DNA of 64,000 nucleotides, from contig OX485804.1 of assembly GCA_950295325.1 (NCBI GenBank), positions 68,052,033 to 68,116,032 of the forward strand. The letters run 5' to 3'. A program made the position numbers and the translations under genes. Origin of the DNA: Polytrichum commune (taxonomy: Eukaryota; Streptophyta; Polytrichopsida; Polytrichales; Polytrichaceae). Positions 11,901 to 45,370 of this stretch are shown piece by piece (positions within the stretch are counted from its first letter, which is position 1; every line of letters starts with the position of its first letter). Under the pieces are notes generated by a model that worked only from the letters and a program-made list of their open reading frames with translations, searched no databases and was not told the origin of the DNA.

Positions 11901-14070
11901 CTCGAGTGTTAACTTTCAATTTGTAAACATCGACATATACAACATGTAGTTTGGGGAACCCAATGTTCCAACTCTGGTTACGTGGTATCCTCAACTTTCT
12001 TGAATTGAATACTCCATGTCACTAACAATCCTAACAATGTCTTCTCACACGTTCAATATGATCACATTAGGGCAGTTTTTCAACCAACGATGCATACAAT
12101 TCGTACCGCAAAGTGTATCACGTGAGTGAATTAGAAAGCTTGCACACTACAATTGTTGGAATCTTGATATTTGGAGGGGCCCATGATTATGACCAGGGCT
12201 TATTGTAAATATTTGGGCCCGGAGAGCAAGGTTACACATGAAGCATTGAAACCTAAAACTTATACAACACATGACATGTATCACTAGACACTTTGTCTAG
12301 GATGACTTTGTTCGTGAATTTAATGATCTTGTGTTCAAAGGCCAATTTGGAGAGAGAAGATCGTTGCTATGTTGTGATTGTTGGGGTCCCCGAGGGAGGG
12401 GTTGTACCGCCAAGTAGATCGTGCAATACCAAGGTAACACCTGCAGGTCCTTATAGGAAGTTGCTAGATAGAGCCCTCACCCAAGACAAATTGGATTAAT
12501 ATCATGAGGGTTGTTGAGCCTTGTATCATATACTGAATTGGTAAGAACATATACTACACTTGATAATATGCCATTTTCGTTAGAATTTTCGGAGCTCGTA
12601 AGAATCAATTACTAAGTGAAGATTCTCTTTCTTATTGAATGATCATATAAATCTCCCAATTCATTTGACAATTGAGCCTAGAATGATTAACAAATTTAGA
12701 CCATGTGGAGCTCTTGCGTGGCCAAACAAAGCTAGAACAAGGCACTGAAAATGTCAAAATCCTCAAAAACAAAGAGCTCTTGGCATCGAGAAGCACATGT
12801 GAATAATTTTGAGTTAGGCCTTACTAGATGATTGAATCTAAAGTTGAAAGAAAGGAGCTCTGGCCATTGACAATTGGCCAAGGGTCACATATCATATATT
12901 TTGAGAGTCGAGGGAATCACGTTTTCAAATGACAAAAAAGAGTGAATTTGTAATTATACCTGTAAGAACAACCCAACCAAAGGTTGCCTCATCATTTGGG
13001 AACACTCTAATTCTTGATATTTTGAGGAACCATGTGTCAACCCGGACTAAAGCCTTGAAAGCATGTTCCCATGAGGAGAGTCGCCACTTTGCGATGTACT
13101 ATGAAGGGCTTGAGAATAGTGCCGGAAACCCCCAATCATTGGAAATGCAATTGAACTCTTAGATGACAGCCTCCGCTAAATATCATGTTGTAAGATTTAT
13201 TTATTTTATAATTTTTCAAAATTTGAAAAAGGCTATCTCGATGACAAAAAATGTCATGTTGATGATTAATGGACGTGACATTTCTAGGTCTATGCAATAT
13301 GAATTTGAATGTAGCTCTTTGCAATAGTAGTGTACATGACACTAAATATCACGAATAAAGTGGCATCCTCGATCCTTGATTGTTGATCGTAACCTATTGG
13401 GGTTGTCAATTATTCTAGGTGCATTTCAAGTCTTCATTGAAAAAGTTAATCTTGAAAGGATTAAATGGTATTATTAGTTCACAACTTAGTACTGCATGAT
13501 TCACTTCCAATTGATCTACAACATTGAATTTGCTGCATTTGAACCATTATGTCTTATTTGGGAGTGGAAGTAAAATCAAGTTCCAAAAAAAGACTCTCCT
13601 CTTGAAAACTCGTAAAATTTTGTTGATAGCACATGCCAACCAATTACTGCATGAATTCGGCATAATTTGGCCAATTTCATGCCATGTCACTGAGGCTCAA
13701 TGAGCATGGGGAGGGGGATCGTGGGCAAATTCCATCTGAGGCGCCCATTCACAAAAGCCCCAATTCAAGGGTGCATATCACGTGGGCCATCTGACAAATT
13801 TTAAAAATAACTCTCCCGGGGTGAGTGATAGGCGCGTCAAGATGAAAAATGTGGACTTTACTCATCCAAGATGAAATTTGAAAATTTACGATTTACTTGA
13901 ACCTTCGCGCCCTGGTCGGCCGATCGTAAGTTGAGCAGTGCGCCTTAGGGTTTCTCTTCTGTGTCGAATGGCTGCCAAATCGTTTCCCCTAAGTTACACG
14001 CCGGCGCCTCACAGCCTGTGACTGCAGGGTCCGCACCCTCCCTGCGTGGGCTGGGATCAGTGCCACAGGG

Positions 14071-14425
14071 CGAGAGAGAGGGACGGCGACAGAGAGCGAG
14101 GGTGAGAGAGAGCGAGGGCGAGAGAGAGCGAGGGCGAGAGTCTTTTGAGGAATCTCTAGAGTGGGAGAGAGAGAAAGAGATCAGAGACAGATCTTGAGTC
14201 TTTTGGGGAATCTCTAGAGAGAGAGAGGTCCGAGAGAGAGATCAGAGACAGAGATCGAGAGTCTTTTGGGGAATCTCTAGAGAGAGAGAGAGAGGTCCGA
14301 GAGAGGGAGAGAGATCCAAGAGAGAGAGAGAGATATATCCGAGAGAGGGAGAGAGATCCAAGAGAGAGAGAGAGATATATCCGAGAGATAGAGAGAGATC
14401 CGAGAGAGATGCGAGAGAGGGAGAC
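14071..14425 (+). repeat. GA-rich minisatellite upstream of gene A
   Basis: Long GAGAGA runs are interleaved with a repeated word close to 'gagtctttt(g)gggaatctctagagag', seen at about 14138, 14197 and 14258. This gives units of about 60 bases. It lies 130 to 480 bases before the 5'UTR intron donor, so it is promoter or 5'UTR sequence. GA tracts are known BPC/GAGA-binding sites in plants, but activity here is inference. Confidence 0.75.
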
Positions 14426-14911
14426 TGCACATCCCACTGACGAAGCAGTGGCCTGGTAGCTACTAATTAATCTCATCTTCTGTTTGCTGTCACTGTCTGT
14501 GTTGGCAATCAATCTTTCCGAGAGACCGGAGCCGATCTTCTAGGGTTTCATGTGAGTAGGGTGGGAGGTAGAGGCGGTCGAGCATATCGCTTTTTGAAGC
14601 TGTAATTGTCGCAGCAGCGACCTAGTGGTAAGATCCAGTCGGGTGCTTTGGTGTTCTTGCTGTCGTCGATCGGTTTTTGAGGGTGTAATTCCTTGCTCTT
14701 GCTTGTTCGAACATGGGGTTGGATGCAGTGGTTGTGCACTGGGATCTCTATTTTAGCTCGTTTGATTGATAGGATTATGTGATCTAAACCACACATGTGC
14801 TGCTTCTTATTAGCTGGCTAGTTCATTTTGTTTTAGCCTCGAGATCGGAGGATTGAACAGTGTTACATTGGTGTTTGATATTTCTGTTCAGGTATTGTGA
14901 CGTATATTATC

Positions 14912-17780
14912 ATGGGGTTCCTTGAATGCACTCCCAAGAAGGGCACCGCCAGTGTCCAATACAAAGAAACATACTCGATGTCGTGGGGACTTTTTCCTGG
15001 TATGAAAGATTTGTTTCAAGCGCTTGTTCCCCGCCCTGACGATGATAAAATTTTTCCTTTTCTCGATTTTACTGCTGGCGAGCTTTCCGAGTGGGAGGAC
15101 TTCGATGTCGAGTGGCTTGGCACCAAGAAGCGGCGATCCTTGCTTTTGGACAAGGTATCAAGTAATCCCTATGTGACCAAATCCACTTCCATCCGGTCAG
15201 CAGTATGTTGCATACAGGATTTCACCACCATTTAAAAGTACCTATTTGTTACGTGTACGAATTTGTATTGCAAGCACATGACACGAATAACTTGCTGAGA
15301 AGTTTCTTAGATTTTTTCCACAATGAAAAGATAATGTCATGCTCTCAAAGTTGATCAACAAAAGAACGCATCAAAACTACGAGAAATATGATAAAAACTC
15401 CAAAAAGAAAAGTGAACATGACTGTAGGGATTTTGTTCCATCAATAGCCACTATAAATATGGGGATTTGATAGGAGACATGCCATGTGTTGTGGTTGGAA
15501 TCCTTGACCTAGTCATCACCCCTTACAATAAACATATTGAGCTCCCAATCGTCATTTTGTTGAACTCCTTGGATCCATGAGAATCATAATACTATAAAAA
15601 GGTAGGCTTTAATAACTTTGATGGACCTCTAGCTGCAATCGAAATCTTCTTCAAGATCGAAACTGAGTGTGATCAACAAGAAAGCCATAGTTTGGGTTCC
15701 TGGTACGATAGGGTTTAGTATTGTGTTCTCCTTTGTTACTTCTAATCAAGTAAGAACAAGTATGCTAGACTACAAGGTATATATGGCCTGAGGAAAATTT
15801 GATGATGTAAAAATTTTAGTCAACACGTAGGTGGAGTGATTTTCCTCGCAAACAGAATGTGTTTCAGTGTAGTCTTGTTATGGTAAAGTTTACTCAGTCC
15901 TAGACTTCAAGCTACAGGTTATTGCGTTCTATTTTTCTAGAAAAGACTCGAATGATATACTTTCTGGTGAATAAAACTGGAGTAATCGAGAGGTTTGGAT
16001 ATGCTATTTTCCGTTTAAGAAGTGTCTGGATACATGCATGCTTGGGCTTACTTTATACCCTTGAGTTTTCACTTCTTGTATGACACTTGGTTTCGTTGTG
16101 CTCCAGGAAAGGGATGTGTACGAAAAGCTGAAAAATGAGACTTCTGCGAGAATGAAAATGATTCGTTCACGCTGGAACAAATTGGAGGGGCATCTGAAAA
16201 ACATCAAGATATGTCATGCACAAAGCGAACATCTTGTTCAAACTGTCTCGGAGGGCATTCAAAAAATGGCAGACCACTACGCAAGGGTTTCCCAAGTTGA
16301 TTCCAACTTCGTGAGGTTGTATACAACCAGGAATTTTCGGAGTCTACTAAGTTCTGTAGACAGTCTCAAGAATTGTGTGCGGGATATAGAAAAGTTTTTA
16401 TTGGAGTGCAAAAGGGAATGGAAACTTCATGCTCTTCAACTCTCTGTGCCGTTACGTGATTCTGCAACGCCTACACTATCTATGTTTGACCACCTCATTG
16501 TTGAGCTATCCTGGAATCTTAACAAAATCCATTATCTACTATCCTTGGGAGAGGCATCAACGAAGGTAGAATGGAAGTGGCATGCTATACTATGCAGGCA
16601 TGTATTGATAGAAGCAGGCCGTGGAGGTGAAGATCGTCAAGGACCTGGTATTGGTGAATCAAGTCTAGGCTACAGGGACAGTGACCGTGACAATTTAAGT
16701 CACCTCTTGGAGGATGGATCCATATTTGCACTGGAGAAGTCCCTTACTATTTTGAAGCCCTGGACGTGCTTTGCACAGGATGGATCACCAGAAGCTTTTG
16801 GAGAAATTCTGAAGAAGAGGTTGCGTACAGAGAGATGTATCTCCCATACGAACAAGTCAAGCTCAATTCCTGTAAAGAATTTTCAGATTAATCATCTGGA
16901 ACTCAAGTATAAGAGCACGAAGCCCTTAAAAAGTGGAACTTTTAAGAGTATCTACAAAGGAGAGTGGTTTGGCCAGCCAGTTGCGATTGCCATTATGGTG
17001 AAGATTGACGGACTAGAGTCTCTCGTGGAAAAAAAGACAGGGGTTTTGCTGGAGCTGCAACATCCAAATATTGTGGCGTTTTATGGGTATTCGTATACAC
17101 GTGAAGCACGCTTGCCTGAATCCGAGAGTCCCACAACAGCAGCTTATCTTGTAATGGAGCTGATGGAAAGCGACCTGTCTGACCTTATTGAGAGTCGCTG
17201 GAGGTCTAGAGGCCCTTTCTCAATCTCTGTCGCACTTGATATTATGTTGCAGATTGCTGAAGCCATGGTCTATTTGCATGAACGGGGCATCATGCATCGA
17301 GATCTTAAGCCCTTGAATTGCTTGGTGAAAGCTAGATCTGAACCACCAGATGTGTACCACACTGTCAAATTAACTGATTTTGGATCACCCAGAGCAGTGG
17401 ATATAGAATCCACATCCGATTTGTTTACTGCTAATCCAGGAACTACGCGGTGGATGGCACCGGAAATGTTTGCGCCCTGCAAAGGCGCCTGGGAGAAGGT
17501 AAAATATACAAAATCTGCAGATGTGTATGGCTTTGGGATAATTTGCTCCCAAATTGTCACTGGTGAGGTGACACCCATGCCTGAAATAAGAGGACCTGAT
17601 GTGATGGAGGCGGTAAGGAATGGCGCACGACCTTCGTTTCCCGCATCTCTCAGTTATCCGGATGCTTTGAAGCAGCTCATCATCAACTGCTGGCACGAAG
17701 AGCCTGGCTCTCGACCAAACTTCGTAGACATACGGGAAAGATTGTGGACCATCAGAAAAGATGTAGAGCTTCAAGGATAG
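14912..17780 (+). CDS. Kinase-like gene A: N-terminal domain, helical region, atypical kinase
   Basis: Two coding exons are supported: 14912-15154 and 16107-17780 (638 residues). A 5'UTR intron (14552-14891) is likely upstream. The junction ...SLLLDK|ERDVYEKLKN is phase 0 with GT-AG ends. Exon 1 (81 residues) is a small domain I cannot name. Exon 2 starts with about 170 mostly helical residues (for example VRDIEKFLLECKREWKLHAL), then a charged linker, then a kinase fold. The glycine loop is degenerate (SGTFKSIYKG). VAIK reads VAIA, the Lys replaced by Ala (codon 16989-16991). The alpha-C Glu position is Lys (17034-17036). HRDLKPLN (from 17295), DFG (17376-17384) and MAPE are kept. It may be a pseudokinase. 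Helix bundle plus pseudokinase recalls plant MLKL-like or moss kinase-NLR N-termini, which is inference. The ATG at 16080 lies in the intron and is probably not the start. Confidence 0.8.
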
Positions 17781-18167
17781 ACGGACGGACTCCTACAAAT
17801 TATTCATGAGGCACCTGATGCATATGGGTACAGATAACCCTCCAGAGATGTTACCTCGATAAGTGTTAATATATGAAATATTATGCCATTCTAAATTCTC
17901 AAGGAAGTATGTTAGATCTTAGATGTTACTGACTATTTAGAACATCCTTTCTAAGTTTACCTCGTTAAGTGTTAGGATAACTTGAAGTAAATGAGATAGG
18001 CAGGATAATCTGGAGTTTAATCATGAGCTTAATGATCATGTGTCCAACTTGCATCATGTGTCCAACTTGCATGCCTATGGATGCACATACTGTATTGGTA
18101 AAACAATCCTGGATAAAAAAATAAACAGATTTGTTCAATTTGAAACCAGTACACTGATTGTCCCAAT
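17781..18167. other. 3' flank of gene A
   Basis: This flank is conserved with the flanks of copies B (from 23988) and C (from 45371). It probably contains the 3'UTR. No further coding signal is seen. Confidence 0.5.
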
Positions 18168-18345
18168 TAGTGCTATTTGGAGTTACGCAGAGCAATAACG
18201 TTTTCCTCAGGTGTTCAATATTTACTAATGAAAGTTCAATAGGTTGTCCGGACATTTTAGGACATACATGACTTTGCTTTGTAAAATATTATGTTCTTAG
18301 TAAATAGTTATCGCACGGTGTAACTCCGAATAGTAACATGCACTA
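18168..18345. mobile_element. Foldback MITE (copy in unit A)
   Basis: The left end 'tagtgctatttggagttacg' and right end 'taactccgaatagtaacatg' + 'cacta' are near inverse complements. They enclose about 100 bp with 'gaaagttcaataggttgtcc' in the middle. Related copies occur at 24375-24552, 36091-36275 and 45728-45910. The first and the two other kinase-flank copies are inherited by duplication. The 36091 copy is an independent insertion, which defines the element. Confidence 0.65.
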
Positions 18346-19245
18346 TTTGAGATAATCACTATACCCATGTCATTGCTCTTGGAAATGTCAACTTGCCAAG
18401 CTGATAATGATGGACGACAATGTGAAAGTTGAGACTGTTGAGAATGAACCTCCTATCCAAGAAATAACTGTAAAAGATTGTATCCACATTCTTTGGAATT
18501 CTTTAGACGTGAACAAAGGCTATTTTGTACAACTAGCCTCATCAACGATGTCATTACATCTCTAGAGAAGAAGCTTGAAAAGAGACTTATAAGTGCACTA
18601 AATATGAAATTTAGTATCCACAATTCAAATTGTCTTGCTCAATACTAATTGTAAACCATGGTATAGTGTCACCAACAGTAAATATTAACCCAACATTATT
18701 TGTCATTCCTTGTGAAAATTATGCGGGATTATAGATTTACAGTGTTGCAATGGCTGTCACTTACCAAGTGATTTTTCATCCAAATTTCAATCATCCATGA
18801 CAATATCTCATCACAACTTCCTGACAAGAGAAGCTAGGAATGTGGTCAATGGATGAACTCATCCATCATCCATGACAATATTTGTTTACTTATTCATGAG
18901 AAGTGTCTTCCGAAAAGTTACCATAGTGACATAGGCCGGAGGTCCCTACCTGTGTGTTAGATTTAGTTTTGAATGAATACACTCAATTTTTGAAATTTAT
19001 CACAAAAATTTACCACCGACAAAAAATTATTATGTCAGAGAATGAATTTGGTAAACACTAAAAACAAGATTACCGTTTGCGTATAAAAACATATTTGTGT
19101 TAGAAGCCATCATAATTAATTTGTCATTAAATTTGGGGTGGACCCGAGCAATCTGACAAGGCCTACAATAAAAAGGGGTTTGTGTCAAAGGGGGCATGAC
19201 CCTTGGAGCACGACCCGAACAACATTTTTTGGACCAAGTTTTAAA
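18346..19245. other. Gene-free flank of unit 1
   Basis: AT-rich, collinear with interrupted pieces of unit 2 (26752-26958, 28725-29013, 30245-30566). No coding region is recognised. Confidence 0.5.
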
Positions 19246-19320
19246 CACTAGTAAAAATGGCTCTTTTGTGTTAAAATGGCTCTTTTTTCATGTTCAAAAG
19301 AGCCATGATCTGTACTAGTG
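19246..19320. mobile_element. Tiny CACTA-like foldback element
   Basis: The segment starts CACTAGTAAAAATGGCTCTT and ends with AAAAGAGCCATGATCTGTAC then TAGTG. Both termini therefore read CACTAGTA going inward. CACTA ends are typical of the CACTA/En-Spm superfamily. The expected 3-base target duplication is not evident. The unit 2 copy (30567-30622) lacks about 20 internal bases. Confidence 0.45.
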
Positions 19321-20214
19321 CTATCTATGCATGTAAGGTAGAGGGAAGCTAAGTCTCCAATTCACCATCCACTTTCTACTCCAAATTGCCTTTAAAAAGC
19401 CAAAGATTTATGGCCTTGCTCTTGGACACAGCTCTCAAATCCTGCACTGGGAAACTTGAAATATTTCCCCAGAGATGCCATGGACAATTTAATCAATTGT
19501 GTGGCAAGGCTCACGCCTCAAATTGAGAGCCACAGTTTCTGGGCAGACACCAGCCTCTTTGCTACGGATAAAAGGTTTGAAGACATGTTCACATGACAAA
19601 AAATGTTTGTTTGTACATATAATCCAGAACTGGTAACTTTTTTCCTTGCAACTAATGTCGTTAGGGTTTCTAGAGATGAATGTCTTGCATACTTTAGTTT
19701 CCATCACTTAGATATGCCTCACAGTGCAGGACACAGAGTCCTAATCAGATTGGAAGAGTGCAACATGCATTTGTTTTAGTACCATCCCTTTGGAGGAACT
19801 CCACAGACGGCTTACCTGATGCCCCTTCAAAATCTTGGCTCAAATATCCCTTGTAATCAAGAACCTACTCTTACCCAACACAAATGTGCAGAAAAAGAAA
19901 TGTTTTACCAAATGAAAAGACTAAATTCTTACAGCTTGTCCAATCCAACATATAACTCTCCCGGGGTGAGTGATAGGCGCGTCAAGATGAAAAATGTGGA
20001 CTTTACTCATCCAAGATGAAATTTGAAAATTTACGATTTACTTGAACCTTCGCGCCCTGGTCGGCCGATCGTAAGTTGAGCAGTGCGCCTTAGGGTTTCT
20101 CTTCTGTGTCGAATGGCTGCCAAATCGTTTCCCCTAAGTTACACGCCGGCGCCTCAACCCTGTGACTGCAGGGTCCGCACCCTCCCTGCGTGGGCTGGGA
20201 TCAGTGCCACAGGG

Positions 20215-20550
20215 CGAGAGAGAGGGACGGCGAGAGAGAGATCGAGAGTCTTTTGAGGAATCTCTAGAGTGGGAGAGAGAGAGAGAGAGAGCAGAGAGAG
20301 AGAGATCAGAGACAGATCTCGAGTCTTTTGGGGAATCTCTAGAGAGAGAGAGGTTCGAGAGAGAGATCAGAGACAGATCTTGAGTCTTTTGGGGAATCTC
20401 TAGAGAGAGAGAGGTTCGAGAGAGAGATCAGAGACAGAGATCGAGAGTCTTTTGGGGAATCTCTAGAGAGAGAGAGAGGTCCGAGAGAGGGAGAGAGATC
20501 CAAGAGAGAGAGAGAGAGATCCGGGAGAGATGCGAGAGAGAGAGAGAGTC
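20215..20550 (+). repeat. GA-rich minisatellite upstream of gene B
   Basis: Same architecture as in copy A, with GAGAGA runs punctuated by 'gtcttttggggaatctctag' repeats. The number and arrangement of units differ from copy A, so the array has changed since the duplication. Confidence 0.75.
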
Positions 20551-21034
20551 CACATCCCACTGACGAAGCAGTGGCCTGGCAGCTGATAATTAATCTCATC
20601 TTCTGTTTGCTCTCACTGCCTGTGTTGGCAATCAGTCTTTCCGAGAGACCGGAGCAATCTTCCAGGGTTGCATGTGAGTAGGGTGGGAGGTATAGGCTGT
20701 CGAGCATATCGCTTTTTGAAGCTGTAATTGTCGCAGCAGCGACCTAGTGGTAAGATCCAGTCGGGTGCTTTGGTGTTCTTGCTGTCGTCGATCGGTTTTT
20801 GAGGGTGTAATTCCTGGCTCTTGCTTGTTTGAACATGGAGTTGGATCCAGTGGTTGTGCACTGGGATCTCTATTTTAGCTCGTTTGATTGATAGGATTAT
20901 GTGATCTAAACCACACATGTGCTGCTTCTTATTAGCTGGCTAGTTCATTTTTGATTTAGCCTCGAGATCGGAGGATTGAACAGTGTTACATTGGTGTTTG
21001 ATATTTCGGTTCAGGTATTGTGACGGATATTGTC

Positions 21035-23987
21035 ATGGCGACCTATGAATGCACTCTCAATAACGACACCGACCATGCGTTCCACATCAAAGAATCAAAT
21101 TGGTGTAGTGACTCGAGCAAATTTGAAGAGTCTGATGGTTTCATAAACCCCGGCGAGAAATTTATCTTGAAAGGTTTAAATCCGAGATCTAGGTTGCCTA
21201 CGTTTCTTGTCTATTCTGTCTCTGGACAAGATGTTCCAGATCACCATTGGCCTTTGATTGGTGACGAGCTTTCAGGGTGGGAGGAGATTAAATTATATTC
21301 GCCACGGTGCAACGATGTCAAGTTGGTTCGCACCAAGAAGCGGAGATCCTTGCTTTTGGACAAGGTATTAAGTAATCCCTCTGTGGCAAAATCTACTTCC
21401 ATCCTGTCAATAGTATGTTGCATACACGATTTCACGACCATTTAAAAGTACCTATTTGTTACGTGTACGAATTTGTATTGGAAGCACATGACACGAATAA
21501 TTTACTGAGAAGTTTCTTAGATTTTTTCCACAATGAAAAGATAATGTCATACTCTCAAAGTTGATCAACAAAAGAACGCATCAAAACTACGAGAAATATA
21601 ATAAAAACTCCAAAAAGAAAAGTGAACATGACTGTAGGCATTGTGTTCCATCAATAGCCACTATAAATATGGGGATTTGATAGGAGACATGCCATGTGTT
21701 GTGGTTGGAATCCTTGACCTAGTCATCACCCCCTACAATAAACATATTGAGCTCCCAATCGTCATTTTGTTGAACTCCTTGGATCCATGAGAATCATAAT
21801 ACTATTAAAAGGTAGGCTTCAATAACTTTGATGGACCTCTAGCTGCAATCGAAATCTTCTTCAAGATCGAAACTGAGTGTGACCAACAAGAAAGCCATAG
21901 TTTGGGTTCCTGGTACGATAGGGTTTAGTATTGTGTTCTACTTTATTACTTCTAATCAAATAAGAACAAGTATGCTAGACTACAAGGTATATATGGCCTG
22001 AGGAAAATTTGATGATGTAAAAATTTTAGTCAACAAGTAGGTGGAGTGATTTTCCTCGCAAACAGAATGTGTTTCAGTGTAGTCTTGTTATGGTAAAGTT
22101 TACTCAGTCCTAGACTTCAAGCTACAGGTTATTGCGGTCTATTTTTCTAGAAAAGATTCGAATGATATGCTTTCTGGTGAATAAAACTGGAGTAATCGAG
22201 AGGTTTGGATATGCTATTTTCCATTTAAGAAGTGTCTGGATACATGCATGCTTGGGCTTACTTTATACCCTTGAGTTTTCACTTCTTGTATGACACTTGG
22301 TTTCGTTGTGCTCCAGGAAAGGGATGTGTACGAAAAGCTGAAAAATGAGACTTCTGCGAAAATAAAAATGATTCGTTCACGCTGCAACAAATTGGAGGGG
22401 CATCTGAAAAACATCAAGATATGTGATGAACAAAGCAAACGTTTTGTTCAAACTGTCTCGGAGGGCATTCAAAAAATGGCAGATCACTATGCAAGGGTTT
22501 CTCAAGTTGAGTTCTTCGTGAGGTTGTATACAACCAGGAATTTTCGGAGTTTAGTAAGTTCTTTAGAGAGTCTCAAGAATTGTGTGCGGGATATAGAAAA
22601 GTTTTTATTGGAGTGCAAAAGGGAATGGAAACTTCATGCTCTTCAACTCTCTGTGCCGTTACGTGATCCTGCAACGCCCACACTCTCTATGTTTGACTAC
22701 CTCATTGTTGAGCTATCCTGGAATCTTAACAAAATCCATTATCGACTATCCTTGGGAGAGGCATCAACGAAGGTAGAATGGAAGTGGTGCACTATACTAC
22801 GCAGGCATGTATTGATAGAAGCAGGCGGGGGAGGTGAAGATCGTCAAGGACCTGGTATTGGTGAATCAAGTCTAGGCTACAGGGACAGTGACCGTGACAA
22901 TTTAAGTCACCACTTGGAGGATGGATCCATATTTGCACAGGAGGAGTCCTTTACTATTTTGAAGCCCTGGACGTGCTTTGCACAGAATGGATCACCAAAA
23001 ACTTTTGGAGAAATTCTGAAGAAGAGGTTGGGTACAGAGAGATGTATCTCCCATACGAACAAGTCAAGCTCAATTCCTGTAAAGAATTTTCAGATTAATC
23101 ATCTGGAACTCAAGTATAAGAGTACGAAGCCCTTAAACGAAGGAAGTTTTAAGAGAATCTACAGAGGAGAGTGGATTGGACACCGAGTTGCGATTGCCAT
23201 TATGGTGAAGATTGACGGACTAGAGTCTCTCGTGGAAAAGGAGGCAAGGTTTTTGCTGGAGCTGCAACATCCAAATATTGTGGCGTTTTATGGGTATTCG
23301 TATACACGTGAAGCACGCTTGCCTGAATCCGAGAGTCCCACAACAGCAGCTTATCTTGTAATGGAGCTGATGGAAAGCGACCTGTCTGACGTGATTGGGA
23401 GTCGGTGGAGGTCTAGAGGCCCTTTCTCAATCTCTGTCGCACTTGATATTATGTTGCAGATTGTTGAAGCCATGGTCCATTCGCACGAACGGGGCATCAT
23501 GCATCGAGATCTGAAGCCCATGAATATCTTGGTGAAAGCTAGATCTGCACCACCAGATGTGTACTACACTGTCAAAGTAACTGATTTTGGATCAGCCACA
23601 GAAGTGGATACAGAATTCCTCTCCGATTTGTTTACTGTGAGGCCAGGAACCACGCGGTATATGGGACCAGAAATGCTTGGGCCCTGCGATGGCAGTTGGG
23701 AGAAGGTAAAATATACAAAATCTGCAGATGTATATAGCTTTGGGGTAATTTGCTCCCAAATTGTCACTGGTGAGGTGACACCCATGCCTGAAATAAGAGG
23801 ACCTGATGTGATGGAGGCGGTAAGGAATGGCGCACGACCTTCGTTTCCCGCATCTCTCAGTTATCCGGATGCTTTGAAGCAGCTCATCATCAACTGCTGG
23901 CACGAAGAGCCTGGCTCTCGACCAAACTTCGTAGACATACGGGAAAGATTGTGGACCATCAGAAAAGATGTAGAGCTTCAAGGATAG
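21035..23987 (+). CDS. Kinase-like gene B: N-terminal domain, helical region, atypical kinase
   Basis: Coding exons are 21035-21364 and 22317-23987, phase 0, giving 666 residues. The 5'UTR intron is 20674-21014 (GTGAGT...CAG). The N-terminal exon encodes 110 residues beginning MATYECTLNNDTDHAFHIKE, with a GFINPGEKFIL motif and a basic RTKKRRSLLLDK end shared with gene A. This looks like a small beta-rich domain of unknown name. The second exon gives a helical region and a kinase fold with loop NEGSFKRIYRG. VAIA replaces VAIK (Ala codon 23196-23198). The alpha-C Glu is present (EKEARFLLELQHPNI, Glu codon 23241-23243). HRDLKPMN and TDFG are kept, and GPEM replaces APEM. It is the most complete of the three copies. 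It is nearly identical to A in the last third of the protein but differs strongly in the first exon. Catalytic activity is doubtful. Immune signalling is a guess from architecture and duplication pattern. Confidence 0.82.
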
Positions 23988-24374
23988 ACGGACGGACTCC
24001 TACAAATTATTCATGAGGCACCTGATGCATATGGGTACAGATAACCCTCCAGAGATGTTACCTCGATAAGTGTTAATATATGAAATATTATGCCATTCTA
24101 AATTCTCAAGGAAGTATGTTAGATCTTAGATGTTACTGACTATTTAGAACATCCTTTCTAAGTTTACCTCGTTAAGTGTTAGGATAACTTGAAGTAAATG
24201 AGATAGGCAGGATAATCTGGAGTTTAATCATGAGCTTAATGATCATGTGTCCAACTTGCATCATGTGTCCAACTTGCATGCCTATGGATGCACATACTGT
24301 ATTGGTAAAACAATCCTCGATAAAAAAATAAACAGATTTGTTCAACTTCAAACCAGTACACTGATTGTTCCAAT

Positions 24375-24552
24375 TAGTGCTATTTGGAGTTACGCAGAGC
24401 AATAACGTCTTCCTCAGGTGTTCAATATTTACTAATGAAAGTTCAATAGGTTGTCCGGACATTTTAGGACATACATGACTTTGCTTTGTAAAATATTACG
24501 TTCTCAGTAAATAGTTATTGCACCGCTTAACTCCGAATAGTAACATGCACTA
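24375..24552. mobile_element. Foldback MITE (copy in unit B)
   Basis: Inherited copy of the element at 18168-18345, with the same inverted ends and a few substitutions. Confidence 0.6.
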
Positions 24553-25179
24553 TTTGAGATAATCACTATACCCATGTCATTGCTCTTGGAAATGTCAACT
24601 TGCCAAGCTGATGATGATGGACGACAATAGAGTTATCCGCTAACCTCCCTAAACACTAGTTGAGTTGGGGGAGTTAGGGGAATCACCCGTCGGTATCCAA
24701 AAAGCCCACCCGTCAGCAACATCTAAAAAAAATGCGGACCCAGACTCCTTTCAAGGTGTGGGAGACCTTCAAAACGCGTTTGACCAGGGGTTCATTAAGT
24801 AGAGCGGCCCGTCAGGGTTTTTAGACCGGGTCCAGTTGGAGCCCGGCTTCCACACACAGTCCGGGGAGTTCTGTAGAGAAACCGGCTAATTTCCGAGGTT
24901 TCTGGAGGTGGCTCGGATTATACAAATTTTACCCGGAAGTGGCCTAAAGAGTGCAAAATTTATCGGTTGATAGCCCCCATTTCCTAATGTGTTTAGGCAA
25001 TTAGCCGGCATTTTTTTTTTCATTTATGCAATTTCCGGAAGGTCTAAAATATGGCCGGTTTTATATTTTGGTGGTGGATGTGTCATGATCATTTATTCAA
25101 TTTTTTTTGAATTAATGTGGATTAATTCAATGTGGGTATTCACTCTCCATTTATTGTCATCTAAATAATATCCTTAGTA

Positions 25180-33393: not shown

Positions 33394-33739
33394 GAATTTG
33401 TTTAGTACCATCCCTTTGGAGGAACTCCACAGACGGCTTACCTGATGCCCCTTCAAAATCTTGGCTCAAATATCCCTTGTAATCAAGAACCTACTCTTAC
33501 CCAACACAAATGTGCAGAAAAAGGAAACGTTTTACCAAATGAAAAGACTAAATTCTTACAGCTTGTGCAATCCAACATATTGCGTAAAAACACTAGAGGC
33601 CCAACACTTTACTGTGACCTGCCTCTGCAAATAGGATTGTGGTCTTCTCCTGCTGATGCTGATAATGCTCTAAATGTACATGGTCACAAGAAGTGACTGA
33701 CAGGAGCCATTGATGTTTGTGCTCTATGCGTATCCAATA

Positions 33740-36090: not shown

Positions 36091-36275
36091 TAGTGTCACT
36101 TACTATTTAGAATTACACAATGCAATAACTTCTTACTCTTGACTTCAATTTTCACTCACAAAAGTTGAATGGGTGGTTTGGACATTATAGAGCATAAATG
36201 ACTTTGCGTGGTAAAATTTTACATTCTCGATAAATAGTTATAGCATTGTGTAACTCCGAATAGTAAGTGACACTA
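36091..36275. mobile_element. Foldback MITE, independent copy
   Basis: The ends are near-perfect inverse complements over about 38 bases: left 'tagtgtcacttactatttag', right '...ctccgaatagtaagtgacac' + 'ta'. The similarity may extend outward through 'ggtatttagtgtcac'. The interior matches the copies at 18168, 24375 and 45728. Confidence 0.7.
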
Positions 36276-36547
36276 AATACCATAAACGGTGCAGTGGTCA
36301 CATGTTATTTTTTGGGGTGGCTATATAAAGCCAAAACTTGGTAATGATTTTAGTGCATCCCACACCCTTAGGAATTGTCAAATGATAAAACAATAAAGAA
36401 ATCCAAGTATTTGTTTATAGTGTCTTGGAACCATAGCACGATGGAAAACGTTTTTGTCATGTTTGTAATGGGCACATACCATTACTCAACATAATTTGTT
36501 AGAGCATTCCCTTCTAATTTGAAGGAGCTAACAATAGGTGCAAGCTA

Positions 36548-37016
36548 TAGTAATCTCCCGCTTAAGTATGCACTTTGAACCGGAGCCGTTGGTGCGCACT
36601 TTACTCATATCGCTTTCTAGACCCTCTGATTGGATGAATCCCAACGGGAAACGGATAAACCTAAGGCAACCTGCTTGACCCAAACCCAACCAATCAAGAC
36701 ATTGGATGTACTTGAAAGTGCTACCGACTTCAAAGGCTTTGAAGCTTTACACAACACTGTCCTCGACATCGACGACCAATTGCTTTCCTCTGGTATTCAA
36801 ATGGAAGCTAAACATATGTATGATGAATAGTGACGGTCGTTTGAGACATTTCAATGAAATGTTAACACACTGACATTGAATGTCAAGCAAAAAAAATGCA
36901 TGCATTCGCAACAAATGACTCTGCATGACATGTTCAAACCATAAAGTATGAACCCTAATTTTTGTCCAAAAATTTGCGCACTTGACCGGGATGCGTACTT
37001 AAGCGGGAGATTACTG
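36548..37016. mobile_element. Tc1/mariner-like non-autonomous element
   Basis: Terminal inverted repeats of about 24 bases (TAGTAATCTCCCGCTTAAGT at left, inverse of ...ACTTAAGCGGGAGATTACTG at right) are bounded by TA on both sides, the duplication used by Tc1/mariner and pogo elements. The element is 469 bp. A 66-codon open frame (36630-36830, starting MDESQRETDKPKATCLTQTQ) could be a transposase tail remnant, but I cannot confirm that. Confidence 0.72.
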
Positions 37017-37092
37017 TAACATGGTCGGCCCTTACACCCCCAACCCTGCCATGATGTGAGGTTTACTGTCGATGTTTTTGATGGTACTAGCC

Positions 37093-37178
37093 TTGGGCAT
37101 AGGGTCATTGGCGGTACGAACGGACACTTTATTCACGCCGGCCCCTTTTAAGGGACCGGAGTTTCTATCTATCTATCT
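37093..37178 (+). mobile_element. SINE 3' fragment with (ATCT)n tail
   Basis: The 10-base repeat ggtactagcc flanks an 86 bp insert (37083-37092 and 37179-37188). Copy A has a single 'ggtacgggcc' there. The insert ends tttctatctatctatct, a short tandem tail like those of plant SINEs and LINEs, and has no long inverted ends. It is probably a 5'-truncated retroposed copy. Confidence 0.65.
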
Positions 37179-37397
37179 GGTACTAGCCAGAAGCAATGTG
37201 TAATTTAGGTACTTGTGATTGAAAAACACGGGCAGTGGGGAAGGTTTTACTTCACTGGATGTAAGTCAGACTTTGTCCTTGGTATTTTCTTGATCTTGCA
37301 TTCCTTTTTTTTTGTGAAACACCCACAACTAGGATATTTTTAGACCTTCTTTCAGTCGATTTATATTCGGGCCTTATGCCTGAGGATAGGTAGGGAG

Positions 37398-37893
37398 CCC
37401 GGGCACGCAACTCCCATATTATATGCAGGGGGCATCGTATTAAAAACGGCTTAGAGGACGGCTTTTGTAAAAATTATATCAAATTAAAATGATCAAAAAG
37501 TTGGGTGAAGACCAAATTAAATAAATGAGATGAAAAAAAAGTGGGGTTGCATATTTATTAAGCCTCCCATTAAAATTATAAGCCACGAATAGTTGCCTCC
37601 CATTAAAATTATAATTCATTCACAATGTTAAAATTTTATTAAAAAGTCCAAAAAGTTGGGTAGTTTGACCTATGGTACATGTATTCAAAAAAATCATATA
37701 ATTAGGTTTTTAATGCAATTATATGCTTCAAAATATATTCATTTCCTACATATAATTACATTTTTGGATTCCTTGTTAGAAGGGCTACAAGGGTTTCCTA
37801 CATTCAAACAAATTGTATCACTCAATATTGGACTAAAACGCACTATAAGTGATTATAATCAGGACCATATAATACGGGAGTTGCGTACCCGGG
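37398..37893. mobile_element. hAT-like MITE, 496 bp
   Basis: The 8-base duplication gtagggag (37390-37397 and 37894-37901) flanks inverted ends CCCGGGCACGCAACTCCCAT and the inverse of ATACGGGAGTTGCGTACCCG+GG. Copy A keeps the uninterrupted site 'gataggtagggagggactg' near 9614. An 8-base duplication is the hAT signature. No transposase is present. Confidence 0.78.
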
Positions 37894-40274
37894 GTAGGGA
37901 GGGACTGAAGCGAAGGCATAAGTAGGTATTAGTGCTGGTAGTGAAACTGAGCATGACAGGCATCTCACCCAAGGATCGGTCTTAATGCATTCACGAATTT
38001 AGTTGGCACATTGTAGTCAAATTATCAACACTTCCTTGTTACAGGTTCTCTCAATAGTACACAGTACTTCTTAACACATGAGGACATGAAACTATATTTC
38101 CATCGGCACCAAGTCACAAAATCAGTTTTCCTTTGGTATATTGTGTAATGTGATCTACTCTGTATACGTAGGAGAATTTAGTTCTAGTGAGGAATGAGTT
38201 TAATCCCAGTTGATTTGAGGAGAGTTGTGAAACAACTTAATTTGAGCATTGAGAGGTCATGGTGATGCCGCTCTCTGTCAAGGAGGAATATGATGATGTA
38301 GGTTCTTGTACCTATAACATTTATTCTCTTTGTGAAAAGGCAGAGATTGAGAACATATGCAGCTTCTGTTTTGACACTGTATGGATGCTGCCTACTGTTA
38401 AAAGGATTTATGAAGGCGAAAGGAATGCGAAAGGTGAGAATGAGATCACAGATTAGGGACATTGGGCCTACATTTTTTTGCAGTCAGTGGTAGTCTCTCC
38501 GCCATATGTTGCTGGTCCTGGATGAAATCCACATTGATCTTAAGCTTATTGTGTGAGTAGTTCTGAGGCCCATTCAGTAGGTTTTGTCCACTTTATCACA
38601 TGTTTCTCTTAGGATTGAAGTGATTGTTCAAAACGACACCGATAGATGGGTATTCCATTTAATTATTTGAATTGCATGCATCTCAGTGCCACTGCGAAGT
38701 TAGTCCTTCCGTTCCCACCTCCATGCATTGGTGGGGATAATGCATGAAGGTGCATCAACTAAGTCATCTCGGGAGGTGTACATGGTATTACTGTACGCTA
38801 TTCAAGTTCCCAATAGGAAAATTTCCACAATCAATTTTGTTCGACATCTTTCACAAGAATGTGGATGATTCTACAATGGGAATTTTGAGAAATTACAGTT
38901 GTTCACTTCCGATTTGTAAACATCAGCAGATACAACATGTGGTTTGGGGAATCCGGTGTTTCAAATGTGGTCACATGGTATCCTCAACTTTCTTGAATGA
39001 ATACTCCATGTCACTAGCAATCCTAACAATGTCTTGTCAATTGTTCAATACCACCACAACAAGCAAAATTTCAACCAACAATAATGCATACAATTAGTAC
39101 CATACATTGATCACTTGAGTCAATTAGAAAGAATGCTTACTACAATTGGTGGAATCTTCGTATTTGGAGGGGCCCATGATTGTAAATTTTTGGGCCTAGA
39201 GAGTAGGGTTACATGTGAAGCATTGTATTCTAAAACTTAATATACAATGAAGGCATGTAGGACCAAACATTGTGCTTAGGGTGATTTTGTTTGTGAACTT
39301 AATGATCTTGTGTTCATAGCCGAATTTGGAAAGAGAAGATCATTGCTATATTGTGATTGTTGGGATCCCGAAGGGAGGGGTTGTACTATCAAGTAGATCT
39401 TGCGATACCAAGGTAACACTTGCAAGTCCTCGCAACAAGTTGTTAGATATAGCCCTCACCCGAGACAAATTCGATTAATATCATGAGGGTTGATGAGCCT
39501 CATATGAGATATTACATTGGTATGAACATATACTACACTTGATAGTATGCCATTTTCGTCAGAATTTTTGGAGCTCATATGAATCAATTACGAAGTGAAG
39601 ATTCTCTTTCTTATTGAATGATCATATAAATCCCCCAATTCATTTGACAAATGAACCTAGAATGGTTAACAAGTTTAGAACATGAACAACTCTTAGGTGA
39701 CCAAATGGAGCTAGAACAAGGCACTGGAAATGTCAAAATCCTAAAAGCAAAAAAGACCTATTGGCATCGAGAGGCACATGTGAACAATTTTGAGTTAGGC
39801 CTTACTAGATGATTGAATCTAAAGTTGAAAAAAGGACCTCTGGCCATTGACAATTGGCCAAGGGTGAAATATCACATATTTTGAGAGTCATCGAGGGAAT
39901 CACGTTTTCAAATGACAAAAAGAAGTGAATTTGTACTTATACCTGTAAAAAAAACCCAACCAAAGGCTGCCTCATCATTTTGGAACACTCTAATTCTTGA
40001 TATTTTGAGGAACCATGTGTCAACCCGGACTAAAGTCTTGGAAGCATGTTCCCATGAGGAGAGTTGCTACTTTGCTATGTACTCTGAAGGGCTTGAAAAT
40101 ATTGCCGGAAACCCCCCAATCACTGGAAATGCAATTGAACTCTTAGATGATAGCCTCTGCTAAATGCCATGTTGTAAGAAACTAATTATTTTCAAAGCTA
40201 CTTTATTGACAAAAATGGTCATGTTGATGATTAATGGATGTGACATTTCTAGGTCTCTGTAATTTAAATTTTAG

Positions 40275-40613
40275 TCTCGGGGGGGTAGTCATTGGTTGGA
40301 GTAGCAATATACGTGCGAACAAATGATAGGGTATTTTAAAAACATGGGAGCAAAAATTTATAATTGGGCTTAAGACTAATATAGGGTATCAAAAATGGCA
40401 CCGGACATCTTTAAAGTACTATAGGGTATGGAATAATAGGTAATTTGAAATTATAAGTAATGCAAGCCATTTTTATATTAACCCAAAGTAGAAATTTACA
40501 TAATGATAGCATGTGAAAAAAAGAAGAGAATTGAAAGTAATACCCCCCTATAAAATAGTGGTTGTTCGCACCTATATCCTTAACTTTTTAACACACTACC
40601 CCCCCTCCCGAGA
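40275..40613. mobile_element. MITE with long imperfect inverted repeats, 339 bp
   Basis: It starts TCTCGGGGGGGTAGT and ends ACTACCCCCCCTCCCGAGA. Subterminal gtgcgaacaa and ttgttcgcac are also inverted, so the terminal repeats span about 55 bases imperfectly. The word ttttag stands on both sides (40269-40274 and 40614-40619). Copy A (around 13305) lacks it. The superfamily is undecided. Confidence 0.7.
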
Positions 40614-41199
40614 TTTTAGTGTAGCTCTTTGTAAATAGTAGTGTATATGACACTGTATATCATGAACAAAGTACAACCCTTAATCCTTGATTGTTGATCA
40701 TAACATGTCGGGGTTGTCGATTATTCTAGATGCATTTCAAGTCTCCATTGAAAAATTTAAGCGAGAAAGGATTAAGTGGCATTAGTAGGCCACAACTCAA
40801 AACTACATGATTCACTTCCAATTGATCTACAACATTGATTTTGTTATATTTGGACCACTATGTCCTATTTACGAGTGGAAGTAAAATCAACATCCCAAAA
40901 AGGCTCTCGTCTTGAAACTCGTCAAATTATGCCGATTGCACATGCCAACCAATTGTTGTATGAAATCGGCATGCCATGTCACTGAGGCTCTATGAGCATG
41001 GGCCATGGGGAGGGGGATCATGGGCAAATTGCATGTGAGCCACCCATTCACAGAAGCCCCAATTCAAGGGTGCATATCATGTGGGCCATCGGACAACTTT
41101 TAAAAATAACTCTCACGGGTGAGTGATAGGCGCGTCAAGATGAAAAATGTGGATTTTACTCATCCAAGATGATATTTGAAAATTCACAATTTACTTGGA

Positions 41200-41625
41200 C
41201 ACATTCCCACTGCGTTCCCCGAAGGCAAACTCCATTCAGAACTTACGGAACGCATTGGGAATGCACCCAGGTTCGTTTGTAAACTCTCAAATATCACCAT
41301 TTATATATATATGGCATGTTCATGATTGTGTTTATCATAGGGAATTGGAGGTGATGGTTATTAGTCCCCTCAAGCAACATCATTTTAACGGTGGGCTTGA
41401 TTCATGACTTCAAGTTGGAACTTTCATTGCGTGCGCTTGGAGCTGGAAAGAGTATTCAACCACCATGTTTCACGATGGGCGTTGCGGGCAGCCTTCTAGC
41501 CTTTAGATGCTACCATCCTAAATGGACGGCCACGATATGGCTTGGCCGCCACCACCGGAGACTTTTCCAGCGCCTCTGCAGTCAGGCTAGGCTAGGGACG
41601 ACGGCTTCCATGGTAGAGATTTGAA
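41200..41625. other. 420 bp insertion in copy C upstream of gene C
   Basis: A and B read 'tttacttgaaccttcgcgcc' here. C reads 'tttacttgga' followed by extra sequence and then 'gaagattcgcgcc'. Near its start 'cattcccactgcgttcc' is roughly inverse to 'ggaacgcattgggaatg' (41248-41264), so a hairpin can form. No coding or element class is assigned. It would separate gene C's distal promoter from its minisatellite. Confidence 0.45.
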
Positions 41626-41714
41626 GATTCGCGCCCTCGTCCGCCGATCGTAAGTTGAGCAGTGCGCCTCAGGGTTTCTCTTCTGTGTCGAATGGCTGCA
41701 TGCTGATCACAGGG

Positions 41715-41937
41715 CGAGAGAGAGCGAGAGCGAGGGAGAGAGATCGAGAGTCTATTGAGGAATCTCTAGAGAGGGAGAGAGCGAGAGAGAGAGATCGAGA
41801 GTCTCTTGAGGCATCTGTAGAGAGGGAGAGAGCGAGAGCGAGAGAGAGAGATCGAGAATCTTTTGAGGAATCTCTAGAGAGGGAGAGAGCGAGAGAGAGA
41901 TCAGACAGAGAGATTAGAGATCCGAGAGAGAGAGAGT
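41715..41937 (+). repeat. GA-rich minisatellite upstream of gene C
   Basis: Three units of about 60 bases contain 'atcgagagtct.ttgaggaat' and 'ctctagagagggagagagcg'. It is shorter than the arrays in A and B and has a distinct consensus (gagcgagag), so each copy has homogenised its own version. Confidence 0.75.
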
Positions 41938-42421
41938 CCACATCCCACTAAGTAAGCAGTGGCCTGGCAGCTGCTAAGTAATCTCCTCTTCTGTTTCTCT
42001 CACTGCCTGTGGTGGCAATCAGTCTTTCCGAGCGACCGGAGCCGATCTTCCAGGGTTGCATGTAAGTAGTGTGGGAGCTAGAGGCGGTCGAGCATATCGC
42101 TTTTTGAAGCTGTAATTGCCGCAGCAGCGACCTAGTGGTAAGATCCAGTCGGGTGCTTTGGTGTTCTTGTTGTCGTCGATCGGTTTTTGAGGGTGTAATT
42201 CCTGGCTCTTGCTTGTTCGAACATGGAGTTGGACCCAGTTCTTGAGCACTGGGATCTCTATTTTAGCTCGTTTGATTGATAGGATTATGTGATCTAAACC
42301 ACAGATGTGCTGCTTCTTATTAGCTGGGTAGTTCATTGTGTTTTAGTCTCGAGATCGGAGGATTGAACAGTGTTACATTGGTGTTTGATATTGCGTTTCA
42401 GATATTCTGACGGATATTATC

Positions 42422-45370
42422 ATGGTTATATGCACTCTCTATAACGACACCGGCCATGCGCTCCACATCAAAGAAAGTTTCTATGGTCAAAAGAGCAGCC
42501 AAGGTGGTGTCATAAACCCCGGCGAGAAATTTATATTGGAAGTAAGTATGAATGCTACCTATAGAGAGTTTGCTGTCTGGCGTGACCATGAAACAAATGG
42601 TTCAGATCGCCCTCCCTTTTTTACTATTGACGAGATTTACGACTGGGAGGAGATTAGAATCTATACGCCACTGGACGGCGTCGATGACAAGTGGTTTTGG
42701 CACCGAGCTGCGGCGATCCGGGAGTTTCAGGAGTTTCGGAAAGGTATCAAGTAATCCCTATGTGACCAAATCTACTTCCATCCGGTCAGCAGTATGTTGC
42801 ATATGCGATTTCACCACCATTTGAAAGTACCTATTTGTTAAGTGTACGCATTTGTATTGCAAGCACATGACACGAATAACTTGCTAAGAAGTTTCTTAGA
42901 TTTTTTCCACAATGAAAAGAAATTGTCATACTCTCAAAGTTGATCAACAAAAGAACGCATCAAAAATACGAGAAATATAATAAAAACTCCAAAAAGAAAA
43001 GGGAACATGACTGTAGGCATTTTGTTCCATCAATAACCACTATAAATATGGGGATTTGATAGGAGACATGCCATGTGTTGTGGTTGGAATCCTTGACCTA
43101 GTCATCACGCCCTACAATAAACATATTGAGCTCCCAATCGTCATTTTGTTCAACTTCTTAGATCCATGAGAATCATAATACTTTTAAAAGGTAGGCTTCA
43201 ATAACTTAAATGGACCTCTAGCTGAAATCGAAATCTTCTTCGAAACTGAGAATGACCAACAAGAAAGCCATAGTTTGGGTTCCTGGTACGATAGGGGTTA
43301 GTATTGTGTTCTCCTTTATTACTTCTATTTAAGAACAAGTATACTAGACTACAAGGTATATATGTACCTATGACCTGAGGAAATTTTGATGATGTAAAAA
43401 TTTTAGTCAACACGTAGGTGGAGTGATTTTCCTCACAAATAAAATGTGTTTCAGTGTAGTCTTGTTATGGTAAAGTTTACTCAGTCCTAGAGTTCAAGCT
43501 ACAGGTTATTGCGTTCTATTTTTCTAGAAAAGATTCGAATGATATACATTCTGGTGAATAAAACTGGAGTAATCGAGAGGTTTGGATATGCTATTTTCCA
43601 TTTAAGAAGTGTCTGGATACATGCATGCTTGGGCTTACTTTATACCCTTGAGTTTTCACTTCTTGTATGACACTTGGTTTCGTTGTGCTCCAGGAAAGTA
43701 ATGAGTACGAATCTGTGAAAAAAGAGATTTCTGTGAGAATGAAAATGATTCTTTCACGCTGCAACAAATTGGAGGTGCATCTGAAAAACATCAAGATATG
43801 TCATGCACAAAGCAAACATCTTGTTCAATCTTTCTCGGAGGGCATTCAAGAAATGGCAGCAAACTACACAAAGTTTTCACAAGTCGAGCCTAACATTGTG
43901 AGGTTGTATGCATCCAGGAAATTGCGGATCCTACTAAATGTTTTAGACAGTCTCGAGAATTGTGTGCGGGATACAGAAGAGTTTTTATTGGAGTGCAAAG
44001 GGGAATGGAAAGTTCTTGATCTTCAACTCTCTGTGCAGTTACGTTATCCTGGAACGACCACACGATCTAAGTTTGACCACCTCATTGGTGAGCTACGCTG
44101 GAATCTTGACAAAATCCAATATATACTATGCTTGGGAGAGGCATTAACGGAGGTGGAATGGAAGTGGTGCACTATACGATGCAGGTATGTATTGACAGAA
44201 GCAGGCCGTGGAGGTGTAGATCATGAAGGACCTGATATTGGTGAATCAAGTGTAGGTTACAGGGACAGTGACCGTGCCAATTTAAGTCACCACTTGGAGG
44301 ATGGATCCATATTTGCACTGGAGAATTTCCTTACTATTTTGAAGCCCTGGACGTGGTTTGCACAGAATGGATCACCAGAAGCTTTTGGAGAAATTCTGAA
44401 GAAGAGGTTGTGTACAGAGAGATGTATCTCCCATACGAACAAGCCTAGCTCAATTCCTGTAAAGAATTTTGAGATTAATCATCTGGAACTCAAGTATAAG
44501 AGCACGGAGCCCTTAAGCAGAGGAAGTTTTAAGAGAATCTACAGAGGAGAGTGGTATGGACAGGAGGTTGCGATTGCCATTATGGTGGAGAATGAAGATC
44601 TAGATCTAGACTGTCTCGTGGAAAAAGAGGCAGGGTTTTTGCTGGAGCTGCAACATCCAAATATTGTGGCGTTTTATGGGTATTCATATGCACGTGATGC
44701 ACGTTTGCCTGAATCCAAGAGTCCCACAGCAGCAGCTTATCTTATAATGGAGCTGATGGACAGCGACCTGTCACAAGCAATAAGGACCCGCTGGATGTCT
44801 AGAGGCCCTTTCTCAATCTCTGTCGCACTTGATATTATGTTGCAGATTGTTGAAGGCATGGTTTATCTGCATGAACAGGACATCATGCATCGAGATCTTA
44901 AGCCCATGAATTGCTTGGTGAAAGCTAGATCTTCACCACCAGATGTGTACTACACTGTCAAATTAACTGATTTTGGATCAGCCAGAGAAGTGGATACAGA
45001 ATCCACATCCGATTTGTTTACTGTGAGGCCAGGAACTACGCGGTGGATGGCACCAGAAATGATGGGGACCAAAAACAACTGCGAGAAGGTAAAATATACA
45101 AAATCTGTAGATGTGTATGGGTTTGCGGTAATTTGCTACCAAGTTGTCACTGGTGAGGTGACACCCATGCCTGAGATAAGAGGAGGTGATGTGATGGAGG
45201 CGGTAAGGAATGGCGCACGACCTTCATTTCCCGCATCTCTCAGTTATCCAGAGGCTTTGAAGCAGCTCATCACCAACTGTTGGCACGAAGAGTCTGGCTC
45301 TCGACCAAACTTCGTAGACATACGGGAAAGATTGTGGACCATCAGAAAAGATGTAGAGCTTCAAGGATAG
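42422..45370 (+). CDS. Kinase-like gene C, first exon frame disrupted or re-spliced
   Basis: The kinase exon is 43694-45370 (558 residues), intact, with loop SRGSFKRIYRG, VAIA instead of VAIK (Ala codon 44576-44578), EKEAGFLLELQHPNI with the alpha-C Glu, HRDLKPMN, TDFG and MAPE. The 5'UTR intron is kept (42062-42401), its donor GTAAGT instead of GTGAGT. The N-terminal exon starts at 42422 (MVICTLYNDTGHALHIKESF...GGVINPGEKFIL). If the donor homologous to A and B is used (exon end 42743), a one-base insertion (tggttttggcacc against tggcttggcacc in A) shifts the frame and meets TAA at once in the next exon. A strong alternative donor, GTAAGT at 42542, would give a 40-codon phase-0 exon joining cleanly (598 residues). 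Either this copy has lost its N-terminus or it is spliced differently. Confidence 0.7.

Follow-up and report, generated by a model that had tools for sequence, protein, structure and literature searches.

The stretch of the Polytrichum commune genome considered here (contig OX485804.1, C2:68052033-68116032; 64,000 nt, called the window below) carries three genes of one layout, c1, c2, and c3. Each has a short first exon, which in c3 matches the Pfam domain DUF7748 (PF24928); a phase-0 intron of 950–952 bases with conserved ends; and one long second exon encoding a helical region and a kinase domain. A putative intron with GT/AG ends lies in the 5' untranslated region (UTR) of all three. The exon-1 frames of c1, c2, and c3 are 81, 110, and 107 codons long and the exon-2 open frames 557, 556, and 558 codons, with stop codons ending at 17780, 23987, and 45370. 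From exon 1 to stop the copies extend over 14912-17780 (c1), 21035-23987 (c2), and 42422-45370 (c3). Their parts, in window coordinates, are as follows.

13807-19953 (+): duplicated unit at c1, matching 19952-24628 and scattered pieces of the c2 3' flank up to 33580 (self-BLAST)
14552-14891 (+): c1 putative 5'UTR intron, GT...AG, ends conserved among the three window copies
14912-15154 (+): c1 exon 1, 81 codons, shortened and diverged, at the DUF7748 position (placed by position, DNA alignment, and conserved donor; no Pfam match)
15155-16106 (+): c1 phase-0 intron, 952 bases, GTATCA...CTCCAG, 3.0–6.2% different from the other copies
16107-17780 (+): c1 exon 2 including stop, HeLo/brace-like helical region and kinase; Lys of the beta-2 strand at 16944-16946, Ala at the VAIK position at 16989-16991
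20674-21014 (+): c2 putative 5'UTR intron, conserved GT/AG ends
21035-21364 (+): c2 exon 1, 110 codons, diverged DUF7748 (found with c3 exon 1 in the genome search, E 5.8e-10; no Pfam match)
21365-22316 (+): c2 phase-0 intron, 952 bases (copy alignment)
22317-23987 (+): c2 exon 2 including stop, helical region (to about 23087) and kinase; beta-2 Lys at 23151-23153, Ala at the VAIK position at 23196-23198
37178-46455 (+): duplicated unit at c3, including upstream sequence common to 9412-13902 (self-BLAST)
42062-42401 (+): c3 putative 5'UTR intron, conserved GT/AG ends
42422-42743 (+): c3 exon 1, DUF7748 at residues 5–86 (Pfam PF24928, E 1.7e-11), one base out of frame at the conserved donor
42744-43693 (+): c3 intron, 950 bases (copy alignment)
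43694-45370 (+): c3 exon 2 including stop, helical region and kinase; beta-2 Lys at 44531-44533, Ala at the VAIK position at 44576-44578

The original prediction for this DNA described the same gene layout and a local duplication, and both are borne out. By self-BLAST, identity to c1 is 95.6% for c2 (3319 alignment columns) and 88.5% for c3 (3831 columns), so that the duplication of the window copies is far beyond chance. The predicted three-copy array holds within the window only: a search of the genome (408 Mb, 64 contigs) placed two further tandem copies outside it, c4 (L005) at C2:68131800 and c5 (L004) at C2:68144266, making an array of five, and found a sixth gene, 49% identical, on contig C1 (L006, the C1 homologue). 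These six genes are treated as one family.

Splicing of exon 1 to exon 2 is predicted from conservation, mainly because the same two-exon design recurs in the far more distant C1 relative. There exon 2 is preceded, at a distance of 7.3 kb, by a DUF7748 match, and a donor and an in-frame acceptor, judged by eye, again fit phase 0. When the two exons are joined, c1, c2, c4, and c5 keep an open frame. The long intron upstream of exon 2 in the C1 homologue contains apparent remnants of retroelement coding sequence (by eye).

Kinase domain and helical region

The second exon ends in a protein kinase domain (Pfam PF07714; E 2.4e-42, 4.3e-37, and 4.6e-44 in c1, c2, and c3). Matches in NCBIfam were solely to kinase models and far under their cut-offs. 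The top two PDB matches of c2 exon 2, both in the kinase part, are 6lba and 6ka4, labeled “Protein kinase family protein” and “F22L4.1 protein” in the search and presumably Arabidopsis MLKL3 and MLKL2, respectively; no WNK kinase is among the best 60 of its 2362 PDB matches.

Residues were aligned for the six family members and 10 other homologues from the same genome. The VAIK lysine is replaced throughout the family, by alanine or, in c5, glycine, and all six members have a lysine in the beta-2 strand of the glycine loop (G-S/T/A-F/A-K). The 10 other homologues all keep the VAIK lysine, and none has the beta-2 one. The HRD and DFG motifs are intact in all six family members, and all but c1 have the alpha-C glutamate. 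In a fragment of WNK1, verified against PDB 4pwn, the lysine stands at the same place as the family's beta-2 lysine; the aligner put the WNK1 glycine loop in register but not the VAWC stretch, and hence only the gained lysine was compared by alignment. WNKs are described, in a passage of one paper, as using a distal glycine-loop lysine, Lys233 in WNK1 (PMC5346417). The family shares with them the absence of the VAIK lysine and the presence of one in a GSFK-type beta-2 motif, but has DFG where WNKs have DLG; by sequence it is not a WNK, and the likeness is convergent at most. A tree of 16 kinases (no WNK; midpoint root) recovers the family at 100/100 and joins it at 83/85 to L007, L008, and L064, three HeLo-type kinases of the same genome, so that the lysine move falls most simply on the family's own branch, convergent with WNK. 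These three and the other HeLo-type kinases of the genome have the same helical-kinase order; they differ in the canonical VAIK lysine and the lack of a beta-2 lysine (10 compared), and the portions of them that were examined showed no DUF7748.

The kinase had been called defective in the original prediction. The loss of the VAIK lysine stands, but with HRD and DFG kept and a lysine in beta-2 the label is doubtful; the domain can probably bind ATP, and the beta-2 lysine may make it an active kinase, as in WNK kinases. The likeliest competing explanation, quite possible if not favored, is a true pseudokinase, a domain that serves purely as a switch, as in the Arabidopsis MLKLs, and whose beta-2 lysine is there by chance. 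Apart from kinase activity, it is compatible with the receptor-like reading given below. The universal loss of the VAIK lysine and the missing glutamate of c1 suit it, as does the term pseudokinase applied to AtMLKL kinase domains in a passage of PMC10951266. It is harder to reconcile with intact HRD and DFG in every member and with a lysine at the WNK position that is present in all of the family and in none of the homologues retaining the VAIK lysine.

A kinase in an immune-type gene is also found in the moss kinase-NLR receptors, a class of NLR expanded in mosses according to part of one paper (PMC10952240), and the genes had been compared with the N-terminal half of such receptors. Membership fails because the family proteins stop just after the kinase: the stop codon follows it directly in all six, with no NB-ARC or LRR following. 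The next same-strand open frame of 150 codons is the next copy in the case of c1 and is placed at 28180 after c2 and at 53302 after c3 (frames unscanned for NB-ARC).

The helical region is likely homologous to the HeLo/brace region of plants, the link running through other kinases of the same genome. With hhalign, the six family regions against the helical regions of 10 other genome kinases gave 81.9% in local and 82.1% in global mode, compared with a maximum of 1.01% in 40 column shuffles and 0.23% for the reversed profile. Against 20 homologue regions the family gave 65.1%, rising to 84.8% when two Arabidopsis fragments were added (maxima of 1.07 and 0.44%, respectively, in 60 column shuffles per target), and the 20 homologue regions against the Arabidopsis pair gave 94.3%. 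When a helical-only profile of the six family members and 10 homologues was run against 177,635 PDB sequences, 6lba came top (E 4.4e-6) and 6ka4 next (E 0.0011); without the family, the E-values were 0.0033 and 0.0016. A hidden Markov model (HMM) of the 20 homologues, with the family left out, matched the 6lba fragment at E 1.1e-11 and the family at 3.2e-7 (C1 homologue), 4.9e-6 (c4), 1.6e-5 (c5), 2.4e-4 (c1), 0.0024 (c3), and 0.0058 (c2). These E-values are for one comparison with filters off, and those for the Arabidopsis fragments look better than they should, both fragments having been trimmed to the stretch already matched by the pooled profile.

These results support the comparison with MLKL-like HeLo-kinases made in the original prediction. 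In plant MLKLs (6ka4, 6lba; wheat Pm13) a helical HeLo/brace segment comes before the C-terminal kinase fold, an arrangement that the family probably shares. The family is unlike them in its extra N-terminal DUF7748 on a separate exon, in its beta-2 lysine with HRD and DFG kept, and in having no Pfam match to DUF1221. Passages in two papers (PMC9950082, PMC10951266) have plant MLKLs and Pm13 acting in resistance and cell death and the MLKL_NTD of Pm13 as a HeLo or DUF1221 domain, and conservation of the MLKL family among seed plants is stated in one such passage (PMC9950082 or PMC10951266). In the part consulted of a survey that includes bryophytes, MLKL proteins are reported in every species (PMC11218826), and on that account it is nothing new for MLKL-type proteins to occur in plants other than seed plants.

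Two other HeLo-type kinases of the genome have unusual extensions. L073 (C4:39115000-39116200) is a 1034-codon frame with a long extra N-terminal part, of which the 163 residues searched matched no Pfam family and no PDB chain; to judge from it, the HeLo-kinase platform may carry other front domains too. L067 (C3:43753900-43757000) has a long C-terminal extension that looks by eye like a second, degenerate kinase, although Pfam matches the first kinase only. Open frames of 791–928 codons with kinase matches lie near it on C3.

The DUF7748 exon and its divergence

The small N-terminal domain had been left without a name; Pfam identifies it as DUF7748. Against a curated cut-off of 25 bits, exon 1 scores 44.6 bits in c3, 38.9 in c5, and 27.2 in c4, and the exon of the C1 homologue 39.6. 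Exon 1 of c1 and of c2 has no Pfam match. The c2 exon is found when c3 exon 1 is used as a genome query, while that of c1, assigned by its position and the DNA alignment, is absent among the matches with E up to 10. AlphaFold models of the three exon-1 peptides are all-beta and of low confidence (pLDDT 54), and the 138 Foldseek matches to such a model with E up to 10 include none that is significant (best 0.79). A search of one open-licence library found no paper naming DUF7748, PF24928, or IPR056650, the last of which is taken to be its InterPro number.

This exon is strongly diversified between the copies. In pairwise comparisons of the five tandem copies, which are not independent of one another, the introns differ by 2.5–6.2% and exon 1 by 18.3–40.6%, or about 5 to 10.5 times the intron rate. 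Divergence is higher in exon 1 than in the intron in all 10 pairs (Fisher p 3.0e-18 to 3.6e-42), and higher in exon 2 in eight of them. Windows of 100 bases lying wholly in UTR or intron differ by 2–7% and those wholly in exon 1 by 21–41%, and in a base-by-base alignment of c1–c3 the shift in divergence falls near the ATG and near the donor. Unequal divergence of the copies, which the original prediction considered typical of immune loci, is evident in these figures, and the pattern favors the idea of an immune locus. Nei–Gojobori (NG86) estimates of nonsynonymous divergence (dN) in exon 1 are 0.21–0.74, against 0.026–0.058 for the introns. The ratio of dN to synonymous divergence (dS) is above 1 for exon 1 in nine of 10 pairs, at least 1.0 (rounded) for the helical part in all 10, and above 1 for the kinase in four; the ratios are pairwise estimates, and the c1 exon-1 alignment is unsure.

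Ordinary developmental or stress signaling kinases with a DUF7748 part could also be proposed, their exon-1 diversity reflecting a loss of constraint, or else ancient lineages of the exon that persist separately while the introns are equalised by gene conversion; this seems rather unlikely. Exon-1 dS is raised as well, at 0.11–0.58 compared with the intron values above, as exchange or homogenisation would yield, and besides positive selection there must therefore have been exchange, or exon lineages maintained over a long time, whether or not the introns were homogenised as well. The shortened c1 exon, the out-of-frame c3 exon, and the placement of the C1 exon apart from the tandem copies in a DUF7748 tree with long branches also speak for ordinary kinases. 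Relaxed constraint, however, should bring an exon at most to about the intron rate, so that it is insufficient alone for one so far above it. The frames, moreover, are open in four of five tandem copies, and by eye in the C1 homologue, despite many indels; the exon-1 dN/dS ratios and the restriction of the divergence to the coding exon in the 100-base windows argue the same way.

Most DUF7748 copies in the genome lie elsewhere. There are 56 matches, 52 of them over the cut-off; four of the 52 are the exons of c3, c4, c5, and the C1 homologue, and some of the others are partial. With two family kinases as query, no kinase was found within 1.5-kb flanks of 37 non-family loci (L020–L056, in which some places are counted twice), a distance at which longer introns could hide fusions; among kinase candidates in the genome, the scoring covered 76 of 706 in one search and 74 of 828 in another. 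The 30 of these loci that were examined (L027–L056) are mostly short open frames, whereas in the family the domain precedes a HeLo-type kinase. In the DUF7748 tree several stand-alone copies are near a consensus and the fused copies are on long branches. A single origin of the fusion is not supported, since the tree, with its separate C1 exon, needs two changes and has these long branches. By eye, an SSD-ECCDY-like conserved segment has been lost from the fused copies. The domain could be an integrated decoy, pathogens targeting stand-alone DUF7748 proteins and the fused copy reporting the attack with the helical bundle and kinase as output, but this is improbable: the abundance of stand-alone copies, many without a neighboring kinase and several near consensus, would suit it, while fused copies lacking the conserved segment are perhaps too different to act as baits.

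Several of the stand-alone frames have tryptophan-containing C-terminal tails. One DUF7748 match, L068 (C5:29.729 Mb), was considered as a possible fusion with a nearby HeLo-type kinase; it has its own open frame, about 2.2 kb downstream, and appears separate. This frame ends in a hydrophobic, membrane-type C-terminal segment.

A possible receptor-like role

The genes are read here, with moderate confidence, as a tandem array of receptor-like, single-chain plant HeLo-kinases of the MLKL type, with a diversifying DUF7748 as a candidate sensor and a function that is probably immune. Sensing, activation, membrane action, kinase activity, and immunity are all predictions. On its own exon, DUF7748 would be a sensing or docking part, through which the protein makes variable contact with some outside factor. 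Its binding partner would be a molecule from a pathogen or a host component that a pathogen has altered; binding would change the kinase and brace, which would control the helical bundle; and the freed bundle might oligomerise and disturb the membrane or send a cell-death signal.

Several results weigh against this reading. The raised exon-1 dS has been mentioned. In c3, exon 1 as assembled is 322 bases long, one base more than a whole number of codons, and the conserved splice would therefore reach stops immediately. Together with the reduced c1 exon, which has no Pfam match, and the absence of the alpha-C glutamate from c1, this suggests that some copies may be decaying. Pfam gave no HeLo, RPW8, or DUF1221 match in c1, c2, c3, or the C1 homologue. 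For the helical regions of the same four, RPW8 was not among the matches with E up to 10 (the HMMER filters drop most weak matches), and a genome search with DUF1221 gave 15 matches, one of them over the cut-off and none at the family's places. With hhalign, the family against the L007/L008/L064 group gave 61.4% locally but 0.12% globally, and local values were 0.09% against the DUF1221-type subset of kinases and 0.30% against the L065–67 subset. The family alone against the Arabidopsis pair gave 1.89%, with a score of 21.25 compared with 21.1 for the best of 100 shuffles. A family-only helical profile found no MLKL in the PDB, its best match (E 1.5) being to GSK3, and AlphaFold models of the three window exon-2 proteins had a pLDDT of 37 and showed long helices only.

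A bolder proposal, advanced tentatively and with a good deal of doubt, is that the family represents an undescribed class of one-chain plant immune receptor, combining a hypervariable DUF7748, a HeLo cell-death bundle, and a kinase with an independent WNK-type lysine swap in a diversifying tandem array without an NLR part. No description of a DUF7748-HeLo-kinase architecture was found among the titles and abstract openings returned by searches of one open-licence library.

Elsewhere in the window, two U2 snRNA-like sequences (12397-12589 and 39376-39553, both on the minus strand; 52.1 and 60.2 bits, above the Rfam gathering score) lie in two matching stretches of one duplicated region (self-BLAST). 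A 684-codon open frame (31436-33490, minus strand) with a higher GC content of 0.49 and no Pfam match is situated amid the scattered pieces of c2 3' flank. Helitron-type remains occupy 55729-58260, perhaps 54462-59209 (minus strand), with PIF1 helicase and Helitron_like_N in separate frames.

Overall, what the original prediction noticed is genuine and of greater interest than an ordinary family of kinases, and part of it was wrongly named. If the receptor-like reading is true, a plant that is not a seed plant can use MLKL-type HeLo-kinases as receptors, each equipped with a variable sensor. DUF7748 would gain a first role and the WNK lysine move a further independent case, and the array, a single compact locus, may offer a route of recognition parallel to the NLRs.

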